A program made the translations under genes and the position numbers. A DNA stretch of 33,589 nt, taken from the IMG/VR virus record IMGVR_UViG_3300011115_000486, positions 1 to 33,589 of that record. One strand, 5' to 3'. Shown piece by piece: positions 10,164-20,711 of this stretch (the first letter of the stretch is position 1; each line of letters starts with the position of its first letter). The stretch comes from a virus. Under the pieces are notes generated by a model. The model did no database searches, was not told where the DNA came from, and was given only the letters and a program-made list of their open reading frames with translations.

Positions 10164-10553
10164 TTACCCTCTAAGTGCTTCCTGTAGGTCAATTTCACTG
10201 TAATCATGGCGGTTGACCATTCCAACCTTGATTTTTATGCCGTCTGGCGTAACTTTTAGCCCCATACCAGGCATCATGGCGGGTTGCGGCTCCCGTCTGT
10301 ACTCCACATAGCGGGTGTTGTCTTTGCGGCGCATGACCTTCACGTTGCCCTCTTTCCACTGCTGGTAGGCCTTGCTAACCCGCAATTGCATCATTTCAGT
10401 CTGTGGATAAGTCCTGTGGACAAATACATCGTAGAACTGCACGGTACTTATGCCCGCAAGACGGCAAAACAAGTCTATAGAGATGCCTCTTTCCCTGTCT
10501 TTTACGAACCGCTTCATCTGACGGAACAGTTCTTGTTTGGTTAAAGCCTTCAT
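10164..10553 (-). CDS. HTH protein next to TerL (small terminase candidate)
   Basis: 129 residues. Residues 21-65 (RGISIDLFCRLAGISTVQFYDVFVHRTYPQTEMMQLRVSKAYQQW) read as a helix-turn-helix domain, followed by a basic linker (KVMRRKDNTRYVEYRRE) and a short beta tail. The start overlaps the TerL stop (ATGA at 10550-10553). A DNA-recognising packaging subunit is the natural guess, but small terminase genes usually precede TerL, and here it follows. A regulatory DNA-binding role is the alternative. Confidence 0.5.
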   Translation of the reverse strand: MKALTKQELFRQMKRFVKDRERGISIDLFCRLAGISTVQFYDVFVHRTYPQTEMMQLRVSKAYQQWKEGNVKVMRRKDNTRYVEYRREPQPAMMPGMGLKVTPDGIKIKVGMVNRHDYSEIDLQEALRG

Positions 10554-12304
10554 GACCCGTACATTCCTATCCGCTTGAGGTAGTTGCTGACGTTGGTGGC
10601 TGTGGATAACTCTTCTGCTGACCGCATTTCTTTCATAACACTCACCTCACGGGTGAGCTTGGCGGCTATCAGGCGGGGTTGAACCTGTTCGGCAAAGGCT
10701 ACACAAGCCAGCGCGGCGGCAATCACCCTATCATCCTTGGCTCTGCCAGGTGCGCCTATGAATCCGTTCTCACGCACAATGGTCTTCATCTCTTCCAGTA
10801 AGTCCATGCTGAACACGTTCATCATCCCGCGCTCAAAGTAGTCCTTGTAGTACGCCAGCATACGCTCTTTGGTGTTGGCAGTGGTCAAGTACCCCATGCT
10901 GTTGCCAGGGCCGCCGAGGTTGTCGTTCCTGCGCCAGAGATAGTTCTGCATGTTGCCCAGTACGTCCATCAGGTCTTTGCCCATAACGTTGCCCATGCTT
11001 GCTGCTGTCCGGCGCAGCGTTCTGATTTCGTTGATGACCGCCTGCCCAGGGCCGTTGACCTCTAAATTAAGGGTGGAGTTTTTGTAAGCTCCGGCAAGGT
11101 GGGCAATCACCCAAGCAAACTGGTAAGTGTTCATCTCGCTGGTGGCAAATTCTGCCACCTGGTCTAAGCCGTTGGCATACACCCTAAAGACTTGAATGCA
11201 GAAGCGGTCTGCCCAATCAGAGGAACCGTAGGCAGGGTCAGCACCGATGACGTAGTAGGCGGCATCGTTAGGCTCTTCCCAAATACGCAGCGTACCCAGC
11301 CGCTCTGTTGAGCGCATGACCTCTGTGTCTTGGAAGTTCTGCCCAAAGATGTAACGGTAGCAGTCAGGCAGAGTTTTCTTCGCAACCTTCGCAGCGTCTG
11401 TGCAGCGGCTGCTGGAGAAGAAGGAAGTGCCTGTCATCACAAAGGCGTAGTCCTCGGTAGGCGGAAACTCCTGGTACATCAGGGATTCATCCTTGATACC
11501 TTCCAACATCTTCCACCGCCACCAGGCCATCTGTCTGGAGTTTATCTCCACGCCGTATAACTTCTTTATATCTTTCGTCCACTCACGTTCTTCTGGACTT
11601 AACTTGCCATCCCAATAGACCTTATAGATGTTGCTGTCCGCAGGAACAGAATAGTATTCATTACGCCACCAACCGCAGAAGATGGCACGCTGGGTCTTAG
11701 CAGACTTGGCAGTTTTGTACATGTCGTGGAACATGTTGAAGCCCTGGGCGGTACTCTCAAACATGTAGAGCCTCTCAGGGTTCTTTTCAGCCAGAGAAGC
11801 TATCAGGGAAGCTAAGCCTTCCTCATTGCCCCAGGAGGCTGTCTCTGTGCCGTGAAGATAAGTGATAGCTTTACCCTGCCCCAATCGAGACTTATTTCCC
11901 GCAATTTGGTAGAAGATTCGACTTCGGTTCTTGAGAACCATTTGGTTCCTATTGTGGGCAACCAGAGGAATCTTGTACTCTTTTGGAAGCCCTTCCATAT
12001 ACATAGCGAGAGTAGAGCGGAACATGTCTCTGTTCTCCTCTGTATCTGCAACCAACGTGCCTTGCCACCCAGGGTGTGTGAACTGCCAGTAAAGGTCAAG
12101 TGCCAAACTGACAGTGGTAATACCCAACTGACGGCCTTTGAGAATGACAAAGAAGTGGACATCTTCGGCTAACCCTTTCTGTATTTCTTCCATGACATAC
12201 GTCTGCGTCCCCAGCAGTTGCCCCATCTTCTTGAGACCTTCTTCCTTGGTCTCAATCTTTAGTTCTGAGCAAAACTTGTAGAACTTCTGTAGGTCAAACT
12301 TCAT
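10550..12304 (-). CDS. terL: Terminase large subunit
   Basis: 584 residues. The ATPase P-loop variant is at about residues 54-64 (ILKGRQLGITT), and the Walker-B-like strand is in AITYLHGTETASW with the acidic residue in the expected place. The nuclease half begins near VIGADPAYG (first catalytic Asp) and ends with KDDRVIAAALACV, where TerL nucleases keep a late acidic pair. Roles are ATP-driven DNA translocation into the prohead and headful or site-specific cutting. It starts in an ATGA overlap with a glycosyltransferase-like gene. No frameshift or intron is seen. Confidence 0.9.
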   Translation of the reverse strand: MKFDLQKFYKFCSELKIETKEEGLKKMGQLLGTQTYVMEEIQKGLAEDVHFFVILKGRQLGITTVSLALDLYWQFTHPGWQGTLVADTEENRDMFRSTLAMYMEGLPKEYKIPLVAHNRNQMVLKNRSRIFYQIAGNKSRLGQGKAITYLHGTETASWGNEEGLASLIASLAEKNPERLYMFESTAQGFNMFHDMYKTAKSAKTQRAIFCGWWRNEYYSVPADSNIYKVYWDGKLSPEEREWTKDIKKLYGVEINSRQMAWWRWKMLEGIKDESLMYQEFPPTEDYAFVMTGTSFFSSSRCTDAAKVAKKTLPDCYRYIFGQNFQDTEVMRSTERLGTLRIWEEPNDAAYYVIGADPAYGSSDWADRFCIQVFRVYANGLDQVAEFATSEMNTYQFAWVIAHLAGAYKNSTLNLEVNGPGQAVINEIRTLRRTAASMGNVMGKDLMDVLGNMQNYLWRRNDNLGGPGNSMGYLTTANTKERMLAYYKDYFERGMMNVFSMDLLEEMKTIVRENGFIGAPGRAKDDRVIAAALACVAFAEQVQPRLIAAKLTREVSVMKEMRSAEELSTATNVSNYLKRIGMYGS

Positions 12305-12981
12305 GGAACGATACGTCCGTGGTAGGGTGCTTTGGTGGGAATCAGGAACTCTGTTGACAAGTTGCCCTTGATGATGCTGTCACAGGTGTTGACAAACATC
12401 TGGACGTTCTTGTCCATGCGACCTTGGTACAGGTGGTACACACCTTCCTCAAAGTGCGTGCCTATGCCGTACAGCCCGTAGGTATGCAGCCGCCAAGCGC
12501 CTTCCTCCGGCTCTGCTGTCCAGTGGGTAGGGAACAGAGTCTTGTAACGCAGCCCAGCCATCTCTGCGGCGTAGCACACGTTCTCTGCCACATCACTCTG
12601 CTCTGTCTCCGAGAAGGTTGGCTTACGCAACTCTGTCCAAGCATCACGCCACATGAAGAAGAAGGCAGGCGCAGCAAAGATATGGGACTTGGGCCAGATG
12701 TGATTACTTGCCTGCGCTATGCCCACAAACGACTCATTCTGGGCAGCCCACGCCGCAGCAGCGTTGACAACGCCTGGGTTGGTGGGAACACAGTCGATGT
12801 CCAGAAAGCCAACAACGTCCGCAGTGCTGTTGTCCATAACGATGTCCATCCACTTGCCGTGCGGGGTCTGTGTCATGTGGTACGCCACATCCAGACCTAA
12901 GTGCTTACAGGTATTGGTGTGTGCCTCCACCATCTTCACGTTAGTGTTGGGCCAAGCAAGGGTGTGTATCTCTATGTTCAT
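12301..12981 (-). CDS. Glycosyltransferase-like protein (GT-A type)
   Basis: 226 residues. DVVGFLDIDCVPTN places a DxD-type motif at residues 61-63 at the end of a hydrophobic strand, as in GT-A nucleotide-sugar enzymes. WRLHTYGLYGIGTHFEEGVYHLYQGR in the C-terminal half resembles the acceptor side. It is coupled (ATGA) to both TerL downstream and a second glycosyltransferase upstream. Donor and acceptor are unknown. Virion protein, host-surface or DNA glycosylation are all possible. The domain is incomplete compared with full GT2 enzymes. Confidence 0.6.
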   Translation of the reverse strand: MNIEIHTLAWPNTNVKMVEAHTNTCKHLGLDVAYHMTQTPHGKWMDIVMDNSTADVVGFLDIDCVPTNPGVVNAAAAWAAQNESFVGIAQASNHIWPKSHIFAAPAFFFMWRDAWTELRKPTFSETEQSDVAENVCYAAEMAGLRYKTLFPTHWTAEPEEGAWRLHTYGLYGIGTHFEEGVYHLYQGRMDKNVQMFVNTCDSIIKGNLSTEFLIPTKAPYHGRIVP

Positions 12982-13679
12982 GCTGTTGTTCTCAGGTCTG
13001 CGTACTTCTTAATTTGGGGGACACCATTCTTTAGCAAGACCACCTTGCTGTCATCAGGAGGAACTTCCCCCGCCTGCTGGTAGTGGAAGGCCAGGGTGGT
13101 AGGGTAGTTGACAGTGGCTTTCATAGACCGCGCTATCTTGACCCCTGAGTCCTGCACGGCTTTCCAGAAGTACCTGTCTCCTATGTACCCGTACTCTCTG
13201 GGCCGGAAACCCCACTCCTTGCACAGCGGGAATGTTTCACGTGAAAGTAGAAAGCAGTTGGTGTCATTCCAATGGATACCGTTGCTCTCAGTGTCTACAC
13301 CCATCTGTGTCCCGTCCATCCTCCACAGCACGCGAGGACAGGTTACCACCTTGGCCTGCGACTGCTGCATGACCTCCACCATCGTAGCTATGTGGTCAGG
13401 CTCAAACCAGCAGTCAGCATCCAGCAAGCAGATAGCGTCAGCACCCTGCACACTGGCTACCGACAGCCCCACTATTCTGGGCGTGTCGCCAGAGTCATTG
13501 CAGTTGGGCAGAGAGATGTGGACAACATCCGCACCCTTCTCAAAAGTCTGGACAGGGTGACCGTCTGCCACCATGTAGTGAACAATGTCGCAGTGGATCT
13601 GCTGCCGGACACTACGCCAGCACCGCTCCAGTACGGCTATAGGTTCTTTCCAGTAAGGGGTGACTACTGCTACTCTCAT
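12978..13679 (-). CDS. Glycosyltransferase family 2-like protein
   Basis: 233 residues starting MRVAVVTPYWKEPIAVLERC, the classic first strand and helix of a GT2 nucleotide-sugar fold. ADAICLLDADCWFEPDH carries the DxD metal site at residues 87-89. Later EYGYIGDRYFWKAVQDSG resembles the catalytic-base region of GT2 enzymes. The protein ends without membrane helices, so it should be cytosolic. Together with the next gene it forms a pair upstream of TerL. The substrate cannot be told from sequence. Confidence 0.75.
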   Translation of the reverse strand: MRVAVVTPYWKEPIAVLERCWRSVRQQIHCDIVHYMVADGHPVQTFEKGADVVHISLPNCNDSGDTPRIVGLSVASVQGADAICLLDADCWFEPDHIATMVEVMQQSQAKVVTCPRVLWRMDGTQMGVDTESNGIHWNDTNCFLLSRETFPLCKEWGFRPREYGYIGDRYFWKAVQDSGVKIARSMKATVNYPTTLAFHYQQAGEVPPDDSKVVLLKNGVPQIKKYADLRTTA

Positions 13680-14084: not shown

Positions 14085-14250
14085 GAGGGTTCACCATCCA
14101 ATCCAGCAGAGTCTTGCAAGCAGCCTGTATGTCAGGCTCACTATTCCACTCCTCTAAGTTGTTGTGTATCTCTGCCAACCTAGCCCGCATAAGCCTGTCA
14201 ACAAGGTCAACAGACGTAACCTTGTCATGCACTTCAACTTGTACTTTCAT
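14071..14250 (-). CDS. Small protein, paralogue of downstream neighbour
   Basis: 59 residues from ATG 14250, chosen because GGAG lies six bases before it and the upstream stop overlaps it (ATGA, 14247-14250). The in-frame TTG at 14262 is less likely. MKVQVEVHDKVTSVDL forms a strand, then a charged helix (VDRLMRARLAEIHNNLEEW) and the shared AACKTLLDWM end. It overlaps the next gene by 14 bases. Function unknown. Confidence 0.55.
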   Translation of the reverse strand: MKVQVEVHDKVTSVDLVDRLMRARLAEIHNNLEEWNSEPDIQAACKTLLDWMVNPHAQD

Positions 14251-14465
14251 GCCATTCTCCAAACTCTGATTAGGTCACCTTCTGTCCTGGCTACAAACAC
14301 ACGCTGTAGCCGCTTCCCAGCCCTGTAGTTAGCGTTGAGTACCTTCGCCCTAGCCTCCACAGGCACGGTGAAGGAATCCCCTATTTCCATGTCCTCATAA
14401 GGGTAGGCGTACACCACCCTGGGCTTTGGCATAGCAATACCGCTTTCTCTCTCTATCGCTTGCAT
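14247..14465 (-). CDS. Conserved small phage protein, first gene of leftward operon
   Basis: 72 residues from ATG 14465. This start has a GGAG site eight bases upstream, whereas ATG 14504 has none at proper distance. PRVVYAYPYEDMEIGDSF followed by a basic helix (ANYRAGKRLQRVFVARTEG) and a final RVWRM strand matches a small-protein pattern common in phages and plasmids, often next to regulators. A DNA-contacting role is possible but unproven. Confidence 0.5.
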   Translation of the reverse strand: MQAIERESGIAMPKPRVVYAYPYEDMEIGDSFTVPVEARAKVLNANYRAGKRLQRVFVARTEGDLIRVWRMA

Positions 14466-14596
14466 ATCAACATCTCCACTGTGTCTATAACCTAATACTA
14501 GCATACTTCCATCAGCGGAGGGAAACCTATTTTTTTCTGGGGGGGACGAGATGTTGGGTGCACACTCACACAGGTATTGAAACCCATCAACATGGG

Positions 14597-14766
14597 CAGA
14601 GCGGCAGCAGGCAGCGCAGCGCAGGCAGGCAGCAGGGCCATTCCCCTATTGAGAGACTACAGGCAGTGCAGGCAGCTACAGGCAGGCTAGGTGCAGGCTA
14701 GGGAATAGCATGGTGCAGGCAGTGCAGCATGTAATGACTAGTGCAGCAGGCAGGCTAGGCAGGGGA
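14597..14766 (+). repeat. CAGGC-rich array in the divergent control region
   Basis: Eleven CAGGC pentamers lie in the same orientation between 14608 and 14755 (starts 14608, 14622, 14626, 14660, 14669, 14679, 14683, 14694, 14716, 14747, 14751), many extended to GCAGGCAG or CAGGCTAG. I see no GCCTG in the stretch. The region has no ORF and separates the leftward and rightward operons. A small dyad CCCAT-CAAC-ATGGG (14583-14596) borders it. Candidate protein-binding array at an origin, packaging site or promoter. Confidence 0.55.
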
Positions 14767-14853
14767 CAATCGGTAGCCAGGGAACGGGATGTTGCAATCT
14801 ATCCCCTATCCATGCCAGGTGACTACAGCAAGGCCTAGTTACTAAGTACCTAA

Positions 14854-14899
14854 TACCCCTAATTGAATTACTAGTATACCCCTAACTAGGTTACTAGTC
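14854..14899 (+). repeat. Two abutting 23-bp direct repeats (iteron-like)
   Basis: Copies at 14854-14876 and 14877-14899 share 18 of 23 positions. Both begin TACCCCTAA and contain TTACTAGT. A degenerate third copy (CCTAGTTACTAAGT) lies just upstream at 14834-14847. The repeats are AT-rich, directly next to the rightward promoter, which is the usual arrangement of phage origin iterons or operator repeats. Confidence 0.55.
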
Positions 14900-14913
14900 T
14901 ACTACGGGTGTTG

Positions 14914-14931
14914 ACTAGGGAAAACCCTAGT
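14914..14931. promoter_or_regulatory. Operator-like dyad ACTAGGG-AAAA-CCCTAGT
   Basis: A perfect 7-bp inverted repeat with a 4-base centre, preceded by TTGACT and followed by GTGTCAA, so the similarity extends imperfectly outward. It sits between the 23-bp repeats and the rightward promoter. It could be a regulator site or a small hairpin. No U-run follows, which argues against a terminator. Confidence 0.45.
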
Positions 14932-14950
14932 GTCAATTATTGAGATTGTC

Positions 14951-14982
14951 CCTATGGAATTGCATAGGAATAGCCTTATAAT
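14951..14982 (+). promoter_or_regulatory. Rightward early promoter with dyad over the -35 position
   Basis: TATAAT at 14977-14982 is a consensus -10. No good -35 hexamer exists at 16-18 bp. In its place is a perfect inverted repeat CCTATG-N6-CATAGG (14951-14956 and 14963-14968). This suggests an activator-dependent or repressor-blocked promoter for the early operon starting at 15031. Confidence 0.55.
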
Positions 14983-14989
14983 CACGTCA

Positions 14990-15006
14990 CCTCTAGAGTT
15001 TAGAGG
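14990..15006 (+). other. 5'-leader hairpin of early operon
   Basis: CCTCTA-GAGTT-TAGAGG starts eight bases after the TATAAT box, so the transcript should begin at or next to the stem. It is followed after one base by AACC and then the GGAG ribosome site (15018-15021) of the first early gene. The same order is seen at 18096-18128. Confidence 0.5.
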
Positions 15007-15030
15007 CAACCCAAGTCGGAGAAAGTTTCT

Positions 15031-15372
15031 ATGAGCTACTATCAACAGATTCACAGCCACACATCACGTGGCTTTCATATCGTTCTCAGCATCACGCCAG
15101 AGGACACCCATCCCCGTGACCTATTCGATGATTCCGTAGAGGACATCGGCGAGATATGCCGCAAGATTGATAACGGGACATACAACTGGTTTTGCGCCCG
15201 TGTAGAGGCTTACAAGCATGGCATCCTACTTGGCACGGCCTACCTTGGCGGTAACCTTTACAACGATTCGCGTGAATTCATCACTGATGGATGCTTCGAT
15301 GACATGATGGATGAAGCCATCTCCGAAGCAGAGGCGAATCTCGCCAAGCTACAAGAAACCGAAACAGCATAA
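15031..15372 (+). CDS. Conserved early phage protein
   Basis: 113 residues, acidic, beginning MSYYQQIHSHTSRGFHIVLS. The stretches HPRDLFDDSVEDIGEICRKI and GTYNWFCARVEAYKHGILLG are familiar from conserved hypothetical proteins at the start of early regions in phages and plasmids. No function is established. GGAG nine bases before ATG 15031. It is the first gene after the TATAAT promoter and so probably among the first made. Confidence 0.65.
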   Translation: MSYYQQIHSHTSRGFHIVLSITPEDTHPRDLFDDSVEDIGEICRKIDNGTYNWFCARVEAYKHGILLGTAYLGGNLYNDSREFITDGCFDDMMDEAISEAEANLAKLQETETA

Positions 15373-15950: not shown

Positions 15951-16426
15951 ACATCGAACTTAAGAACGTCAAACACAGCGAGTTTGCAAGCCATGAGACA
16001 AACTGTTTTCAAGCCACAATCTACATTGACGGGAAGAAAGCAGGAGAGGCCAGCAACAATGGATATGGAGCCTCAACTAGCATCTTTCCCAATGCGTTGT
16101 ACCAAACCCTGCAAGCCTACGCATTGACGCTGCCCCCGATTGAGTACGATGAGGGCAAGCATGTATTCCTACAGTCTGCGGATGGCCTAATAGATGACTT
16201 AGTGACTGCTTGGCTATATGCCCGCGACCTCAAGAAAGCCATGCAGAAACGCATCCTCTTTGTGCGTGGGCAGGACATGTTGGAGACAAAAGGCATGGAC
16301 TCATCTAGTTTGCAGAAGTGGCTATCACGCCCCGACTTACAGCAGAAACTTAACGCAGACAAGGTGCTAAACCTCCTCCCATTCGGTGAGGCTGTGTCTG
16401 TTTATCGGGAGATGCAGCATGTCTGA
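15947..16426 (+). CDS. Conserved early phage protein
   Basis: 159 residues. Residues 1-45 (LKNVKHSEFASHETNCFQAT, then IDGKKAGEASNNGYG) match a conserved phage/plasmid protein of unknown function in which an N-terminal beta domain is followed by a helical part (DGLIDDLVTAWLYARDLKKAMQ). Start in ATGA overlap with the upstream gene. No catalytic motif. Confidence 0.6.
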   Translation: MNIELKNVKHSEFASHETNCFQATIYIDGKKAGEASNNGYGASTSIFPNALYQTLQAYALTLPPIEYDEGKHVFLQSADGLIDDLVTAWLYARDLKKAMQKRILFVRGQDMLETKGMDSSSLQKWLSRPDLQQKLNADKVLNLLPFGEAVSVYREMQHV

Positions 16427-16736
16427 GGGCGGCTATATCTTCCCATTCCCCCGCGCCCGTAATAGCGACCCCGCCACTAGCCATGCAGCAGCGGCAGCGG
16501 TCACTACAGCAGCGGCGCACTATGGCCTTATACACGCAGCCCTAATCCTTTTTGGGCCTAGTGGTAAAGACCGAATAGCCTCTCTCGCGGGCCTAGACCC
16601 ATCTCAGGTAGCCCGTAGGTTGCCGGAGATGCGTAGGCTTGGCCTTGTGGGGCTAACGGGCGAGACTGTGCAGTCCAACAGCGGACGCGCAGAGCGTGAA
16701 TGGCAAGCGATAACCCAACAGGAGAAAACAGCATGA
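16419..16736 (+). CDS. Winged-helix DNA-binding protein
   Basis: 105 residues. SDPATSHAAAAAV opens a pattern seen in phage winged-helix proteins. The helix-turn-helix lies at about residues 50-75 (KDRIASLAGLDPSQVARRL, PEMRRLGLVGLTGE), followed by SGRAEREWQAI as wing and last strand. Likely a MarR-like or initiator-type DNA-binding protein that could regulate the early or late switch. ATG 16419 overlaps the upstream gene by eight bases. Confidence 0.65.
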   Translation: MSEGGYIFPFPRARNSDPATSHAAAAAVTTAAAHYGLIHAALILFGPSGKDRIASLAGLDPSQVARRLPEMRRLGLVGLTGETVQSNSGRAEREWQAITQQEKTA

Positions 16737-19636: not shown

Positions 19637-20397
19637 GTACCGCATTAGTGCCAGTGGCAGATATAGAGAAGATGGCGGTTGCCATAGCCAAGTCAAAGAT
19701 GTTTGGCATGAAGACAGCAGATGAGGCTTTTGCTCTCATGCTGATAGCACAGGCAGAGGGTATGCACCCAGCTATCGCTGCCCGTGACTACCATGTCATA
19801 CAGGGCCGTCCTACTCTGAAAGCAGACGCCATGCTTGCCCGTTTCCAGAATGCTGGCGGCAAGGTGCAGTGGGATGTCTACACAGACGCAGAGGTCACAG
19901 GGACGTTCTCGCACCCCTCTGGCGGCTCTCTGAAACTCACCTGGACGTTTGCCCAAGCAAAGAGCATTGGCCTTACGGGGAAGGACAACTGGAAGAACTA
20001 TCCCCGCGCCATGCTGCGTGCCCGCTGTATCTCAGAAGGCATCCGCACTGTGTACCCAGGCTGTGTGGTGGGAACCTACACCGCAGAAGAGCTAGAGGAA
20101 ATCCCGAAAGCTAAAGACATGGGCATGGCAGAGGTTGTCGAGGAAATCACTGCGGCTGTGGAGGAGGTGAAGGCTGCGCAGGATGGGGCTTTCAAGCTCT
20201 ACGTGCCCAACAGTGATGAACCCTACGCTGCGTTCCACACAGAGCAGGAATGGCTGGATGCCTACGAAGCTATGGCAGAGCGCATAAATGTCAGCGTCAA
20301 GATGGATGCCTTGCAGAAGGCTGCGAAGCTGGATGGCCTGAAAGCCTGCAATTTGGACATGTTGGATTACGTAACACCCTTGGAGAGAGCACTATGA
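19633..20397 (+). CDS. RecT/Bet-like single-strand annealing protein
   Basis: 254 residues. Residues 30-150 follow the RecT-type layout: ALMLIAQAEGMHPAIAARDY, then VIQGRPTLKADAMLARFQNAGGKVQW, a beta hairpin (TGTFSHPSGGSLKLTW) and KDNWKNYPRAMLRARCISEGIRTVYPG. That last segment corresponds to the conserved P-x-x-M-L...A block of Bet/RecT proteins. The C-terminal 90 residues are helical and acidic. It would anneal complementary single strands after end resection. AGGAGA precedes ATG 19633. Remote-family assignment, so moderate confidence. Confidence 0.65.
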   Translation: MSTALVPVADIEKMAVAIAKSKMFGMKTADEAFALMLIAQAEGMHPAIAARDYHVIQGRPTLKADAMLARFQNAGGKVQWDVYTDAEVTGTFSHPSGGSLKLTWTFAQAKSIGLTGKDNWKNYPRAMLRARCISEGIRTVYPGCVVGTYTAEELEEIPKAKDMGMAEVVEEITAAVEEVKAAQDGAFKLYVPNSDEPYAAFHTEQEWLDAYEAMAERINVSVKMDALQKAAKLDGLKACNLDMLDYVTPLERAL

Positions 20398-20711
20398 GTA
20401 GCAGTAACCCCCACCGCGAGATGCCAGGCTCTGGCGTAGCCTACTGGGAGACAGAGAAGAAGTCCGACAAAGGGCCGGACTACAAGGGCTTCCTAGTCCT
20501 AGAGATGGACTACAAGGCTGGCGAGAAGCTGAAGGTTGCTATGTGGCTGAAAGACACTGCACGGGGCGACACCCTGCTGTCTATTAAAGAGGACAACTGG
20601 CTCAAGCGTAAGAAGCTGGAGCAGGAAGCACCTGTAGAGGTCACCCCTGCCTACCGCCGTGCCCCGCCCCGCAGGGGGCAGGACGATTATGACGGGGATA
20701 TCCCTTTTTAG
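20394..20711 (+). CDS. Unknown protein with SSB-type acidic C-terminal tip
   Basis: 105 residues from ATG 20394 in ATGA overlap with the RecT-like gene. The body (GPDYKGFLVLEMDYKAGEKL, KVAMWLKDTARGDTLLSIKE) is beta-rich, and a Pro/Arg-rich linker (TPAYRRAPPRRG) leads to DYDGDIPF. Bacterial SSB ends in the same D-x-D-D-I-P-F type tip, which docks partner proteins. The body does not show a clear OB-fold signature, so this is either a diverged SSB or a protein mimicking the tip. Placement in the recombination operon fits. Confidence 0.6.
   Translation: MSSSNPHREMPGSGVAYWETEKKSDKGPDYKGFLVLEMDYKAGEKLKVAMWLKDTARGDTLLSIKEDNWLKRKKLEQEAPVEVTPAYRRAPPRRGQDDYDGDIPF

Follow-up and report, generated by a model that had tools for sequence, protein, structure and literature searches.

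The most conspicuous sequence feature of the window, the whole 33,589-base record of an uncultured IMG/VR virus analysed here, is an array of 11 CAGGC words in one orientation (14608-14755, plus strand), and this array proves to be the least conserved part of its region. The finding is both a warning and a better lead: an inconspicuous T-run/G-run sequence beside the array, termed element A, has been retained by all the relatives found by DNA pattern that we examined, and the family gives more than 600 matches to its terminase large subunit (TerL) in IMG/VR. The best explanation, in which we place about even confidence, is that the array is an expanded, fast-changing spacer between element A and a degenerate copy of it, element C, within the late-operon control region of a large family of uncultured phages. 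The flanking sites, not the array, deserve study, and they probably switch on late genes; element A in particular offers a definite starting point for finding out how late-gene expression, packaging or replication begins in these phages.

The window's gene content is that of a phage, with TerL (10550-12304, minus strand) as the family's anchor gene, SU10-like portal and adaptor proteins, RecE- and RecT-like proteins and a methyltransferase. We fetched the best 80 of the more than 600 stretches matching TerL in IMG/VR and collected further loci by DNA patterns. Of the annotated records, the closest two are circular phage genomes from the environment, no DNA similarity to the region was found in cultured phages, and neither the phage family nor element A was found described in the literature. 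A TerL profile gave no match to lambda, P2, T7, HK97, Sf6 or phiEco32, its nearest relative being T4 gp17 in a weak match (probability 31%), and NCBIfam matched neither TerL nor the small late protein described below. One further phage with a partial, 30% identical TerL match and Hydrogenobaculum phage 1 were fetched as outgroups, and in the latter no A-like match was found. As a separate observation, the 153-aa product at 20250-20711 ends in DYDGDIPF, an acidic tail typical of single-stranded DNA-binding proteins, and has no family matches.

The array had been singled out in the first-pass annotation as far denser than chance, and its description holds in full. Word starts run from 14608 to 14751, giving a block of exactly 148 bp with 11 CAGGC on the plus strand and none on the minus strand, where about 0.23 are expected from the plus-strand rate outside the block (Poisson P about 2e-15). 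The reverse complement GCCTG is absent from 14597-14766 as claimed, and the block does lie in the only divergent intergenic region of the window (14505-15030, between minus-strand and plus-strand genes), a gap free of ORFs of 60 aa or more. Across 150-bp stretches of the window this density is matched only by 5-mers that overlap the array, the next being TTTTT with seven copies. The array is irregular, with periods of 7-11 and about 80% matches, and is composed of CAGGCAG, GTGCAG and CTAGG words. Outside the block CAGGC occurs 53 times on the plus strand and 65 times on the minus strand of the window, without strand bias; a Chi-like reading of the word was rejected as no genome-wide strand bias was found.

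Conservation is where the array fails. Among 84 distinct homologous regions, CAGGC counts are 11 in the window, 8 in L113, 3 in L005 and 0-2 in the rest, so that L113 is the sole relative with a comparable array; as L113 belongs to a different metagenome record, misassembly of the window does not account for the array. Absence from close relatives that keep the flanking genes had been named in the first-pass annotation as the outcome that would count against the array, and this is what the search of relatives returned: in L007, L008, L105 and L115 the small late gene (72 aa) and element A are both retained, yet there are only 0-3 CAGGC. At the same place, CAGAC words replace CAGGC in L115, and sister clades carry different repeated words (GAGAG in L011, AGGGA in L019). 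An alignment of 18 relatives places the array within a gapped, unconserved block with conserved A and C on either side. Furthermore, among the matches listed for a 16-bp array pattern in IMG/VR, 80 were fetched, of which none contains element A and most look like chance matches. With the word lost or replaced between relatives and its periods irregular, the array lacks the retained units and regular spacing of an iteron or tandem-repeat array. It is very improbable, and the least likely of the readings given the close relatives without the array, that CAGGC itself forms a cooperative site for a lineage protein such as the winged-helix-like one encoded at 16386-16736: the strong clustering on one strand and the partial retention in L113 and L005 speak for such a site, but closely related phages that share the late gene and element A carry 0-3 copies, the spacing is irregular, and CAGGC elsewhere in the window shows neither strand bias nor enrichment. 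The suggestion that a phage protein might bind here survives for the region, which is conserved and protein-site-like and thus a well-chosen location, and not for the array; the origin, pac and promoter roles proposed with it may possibly apply to the flanking A and C.

Element A occupies 14530-14597 (plus strand) and reads T7-C-T-G7-ACGAGATGTTGGGTGCACAC...AAACCCAT in the window. Its family consensus consists of a T-run, G6-7, GTKGRGKKCAC and RACCCA, and the corresponding profile finds 127 loci. In loci collected by DNA pattern, and hence not selected by gene content, the element adjoins the same small late gene in 63/63 cases with enough sequence and lies upstream of TerL in 40/40, at a median distance of 957 bp; it can still be made out in two outgroups, at 72-74% TerL identity. 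The window's own distance from A to TerL is longer (about 2.2 kb) owing to a glycosyltransferase-like gene and a neighbouring 226-aa gene, which stand at 12301-13679 between the small late genes and TerL. Element A is non-coding DNA in which no conserved dyad, inverted repeat or hairpin was found, its inverted-repeat strength being equal to that of shuffles; with base pairing no higher than in shuffles and no Rfam family matched anywhere in the window, the features of a structured RNA are not seen. In L012, near 2915-2853, the G-run and core of the element are gone, through either deletion or assembly error. In L059 (4272-4346) and L070 (5913-5987) this gap also contains a tRNA-Met (CAT) gene, immediately next to element A.

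Element C (14779-14806, plus strand), on the 3' side of the array, is a degenerate direct copy of the A core (GGGAACGGGATGTTG...CCCC). In relatives, C is again picked up by its score as an A copy, and its position recurs; the window's own C is not the top PWM match and was placed by repeat family and alignment. The distance from A to C (in relatives, the reported offset plus 14) is about 129-196 bp for most relatives. The window's clade has 184-251 bp, with about 238 bp in the window, and the array takes up this longer part. Low-complexity variable spacers between paired operators behave similarly, in that length and words shift between lineages while the flanking sites are kept, but here one lineage has 11 copies of one 5-mer on one strand. 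As a spacer, the DNA between A and C would set only distance and flexibility, would have little sequence-specific function, and would grow by duplicating short words.

What the conserved sites might do is suggested by the sequence to the left of A. Just beyond it on the minus strand, at 14495-14503, lies the extended -10 (TGCTAGTAT) of a predicted leftward late promoter in which a good -35 box is absent. An extended -10 of the form TG[GC]TANNNT, a regular expression picked after inspection of the sequences, stands on the leftward strand of the interval that separates A from the late gene in 58/86 distinct sequences, compared with 4% of shuffles; its distance to the T-run of A is mostly 7-13 or 25-27 bp. 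An intrinsic terminator follows in the same interval in 72/92 distinct relatives, with stems that vary yet remain complementary; the window's clade and its sisters have the -10 and no terminator. In L146, L054, L080, L127, L147 and others, the interval contains a short leftward leader with the extended -10, a CAGTTGYC word and the terminator, the word being conserved in the leader of 48/86 sequences; from its sequence, the leader with its terminator may be a small RNA upstream of the late operon. A different arrangement recurs in L083, L035, L109, L031, L026, L023 and L071, where GCATGGGG ... CCCCAGCCGTG could form a long stem; the stretch gave no Rfam match in L083, L035, L109 and L071.

The first late gene, always beside element A, encodes a protein of 72 aa (14247-14465, minus strand). 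Its reading frame is open from 14504, but the start is probably at 14465, since this is where the conserved protein starts, and 14495-14503 is taken up by the predicted -10. The product is predicted to adopt a beta-alpha-beta-beta fold (pLDDT 84.6), for which a PDB fold search returned nothing significant; among viral folds it resembles mostly uncharacterised small phage proteins, and also part of a longer viral protein annotated with a DnaA C-terminal domain. That the 72-aa protein binds DNA is a guess.

From the position of these motifs we infer protein binding and activation at element A, as follows. The control region would separate the leftward late operon from the rightward early operon, and A, perhaps with C too, would be bound by a phage-encoded protein, for which the 72-aa first late gene product is a possible candidate. 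With A directly upstream of an extended -10 promoter that has no good -35, such binding would turn on late transcription. A fuller version, which we put forward tentatively as the less probable of the two statements, is that A and its remote copy C form an undescribed paired element, read by a small phage protein, that controls the late operon; most members would add a short, terminated leader RNA, and the DNA between the pair would evolve as a word array that expands quickly. Several observations sit poorly with late activation at A: the distance from A to the -10 falls into at least two classes (about 10 and about 26 bp, with 36 bp in L052 in addition), an uncommon arrangement for a strict activator; the terminator present in most relatives is missing from the window's clade; and A exceeds a typical activator site in length and conservation, as would also suit a packaging or origin sequence.

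Known late control systems resemble the region in part. In phage lambda, late control runs through pR', the 6S RNA and tR', with antitermination by Q, whose site lies between the -35 and the -10. Most relatives likewise have a predicted promoter that is closely followed by a promoter-proximal intrinsic terminator ahead of the late operon, but the window's clade has no terminator, a remote second copy (C) is present here, and the position of A is upstream of the -10 and, in most relatives, not within the -35/-10 spacer; no match to a Q-like family, as a Q-type antiterminator would give, was found among the window proteins scanned. The Ogr sites of P2, a phage whose record marks an activator-binding site between promoters pP and pO, offer a second likeness as conserved sites upstream of weak -35 promoters before capsid and terminase genes. 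They differ in that A has no conserved dyad, no sequence relation was found, and no Ogr-like zinc-finger protein was identified here.

Because element A is unusually long and conserved, packaging and replication are real rivals to late activation. In the first, which we regard as rather unlikely, A (with C) would be a pac-type packaging initiation site recognised by terminase, the array being a spacer or part of the site. Its tie to the terminase module in every locus tested, including the outgroups, would follow, although a late promoter should be linked to the late operon just as much. The weak profile match brings TerL nearest to a headful terminase, and near-complete contigs circularise at scattered places, as permuted DNA would; against this, no small terminase subunit was identified, and A has neither a dyad nor any resemblance to known pac sites. 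We compared the ends of 16 long contigs (31-57 kb): six have identical end overlaps of 114-127 bp and several others end at adjoining map positions, indicating that the genomes assemble as circles. The joins fall, in window terms, at about 3.2, 5.6, 6.2, 9, 16.5, 19.5, 22.5 and 33 kb, with none at A, a scatter compatible with headful packaging, collapsed terminal repeats or circular forms. As judged from these contigs, fixed physical genome ends at the site are not seen and a fixed cos end at A is disfavoured, a result that does not address pac. The likeness to the pac and cos regions of the P22, SPP1 and lambda types consists in conserved non-coding sequence near terminase genes, and the difference in the fixed end at A not found in near-complete contigs and the small terminase subunit not identified here.

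The second rival, which we consider unlikely, takes the region for a replication origin with A and C as initiator sites and the A+T-rich part of the intergenic region, where a 23-bp repeat stands in two tandem copies (14853-14898), as the unwinding element. The modular layout, with repeated G-rich sites beside an A+T-rich stretch with tandem repeats, is as this reading would have it, as is the structural neighbour of the 72-aa protein annotated with the DnaA domain. The GC-skew profile, proposed in the first-pass annotation as a check, does turn near 15-16 kb, with a local minimum of the cumulative skew near 15.5-16.5 kb, but the turn coincides with the switch of gene direction and so proves nothing. 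Moreover, the genes scanned included no recognisable initiator, helicase or primase, the occurrence of A goes with the late module rather than with replication genes, and DnaA boxes form no cluster, being at chance number in the window (4 vs 3.2 expected) and absent from 14505-15030.

On the early side of the control region, a predicted rightward promoter has its -10, TATAAT, at 14977-14982 (plus strand), and relatives have one at the equivalent position. The first early gene of the window (15031-15372, plus strand; 113 aa) is replaced by unrelated genes in most relatives; grouping the first genes on this side gives 38 unrelated clusters. A hairpin (CCTCTA/TAGAGG, 14990-15006, plus strand) begins at a constant 7 bp past the TATAAT, at the predicted 5' end of the early mRNA, with arms that differ and stay complementary in many relatives; since perfect stems were selected for, this is an observation and not a covariation test. 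The hairpin resembles a 5'-terminal stem-loop on the early mRNA.
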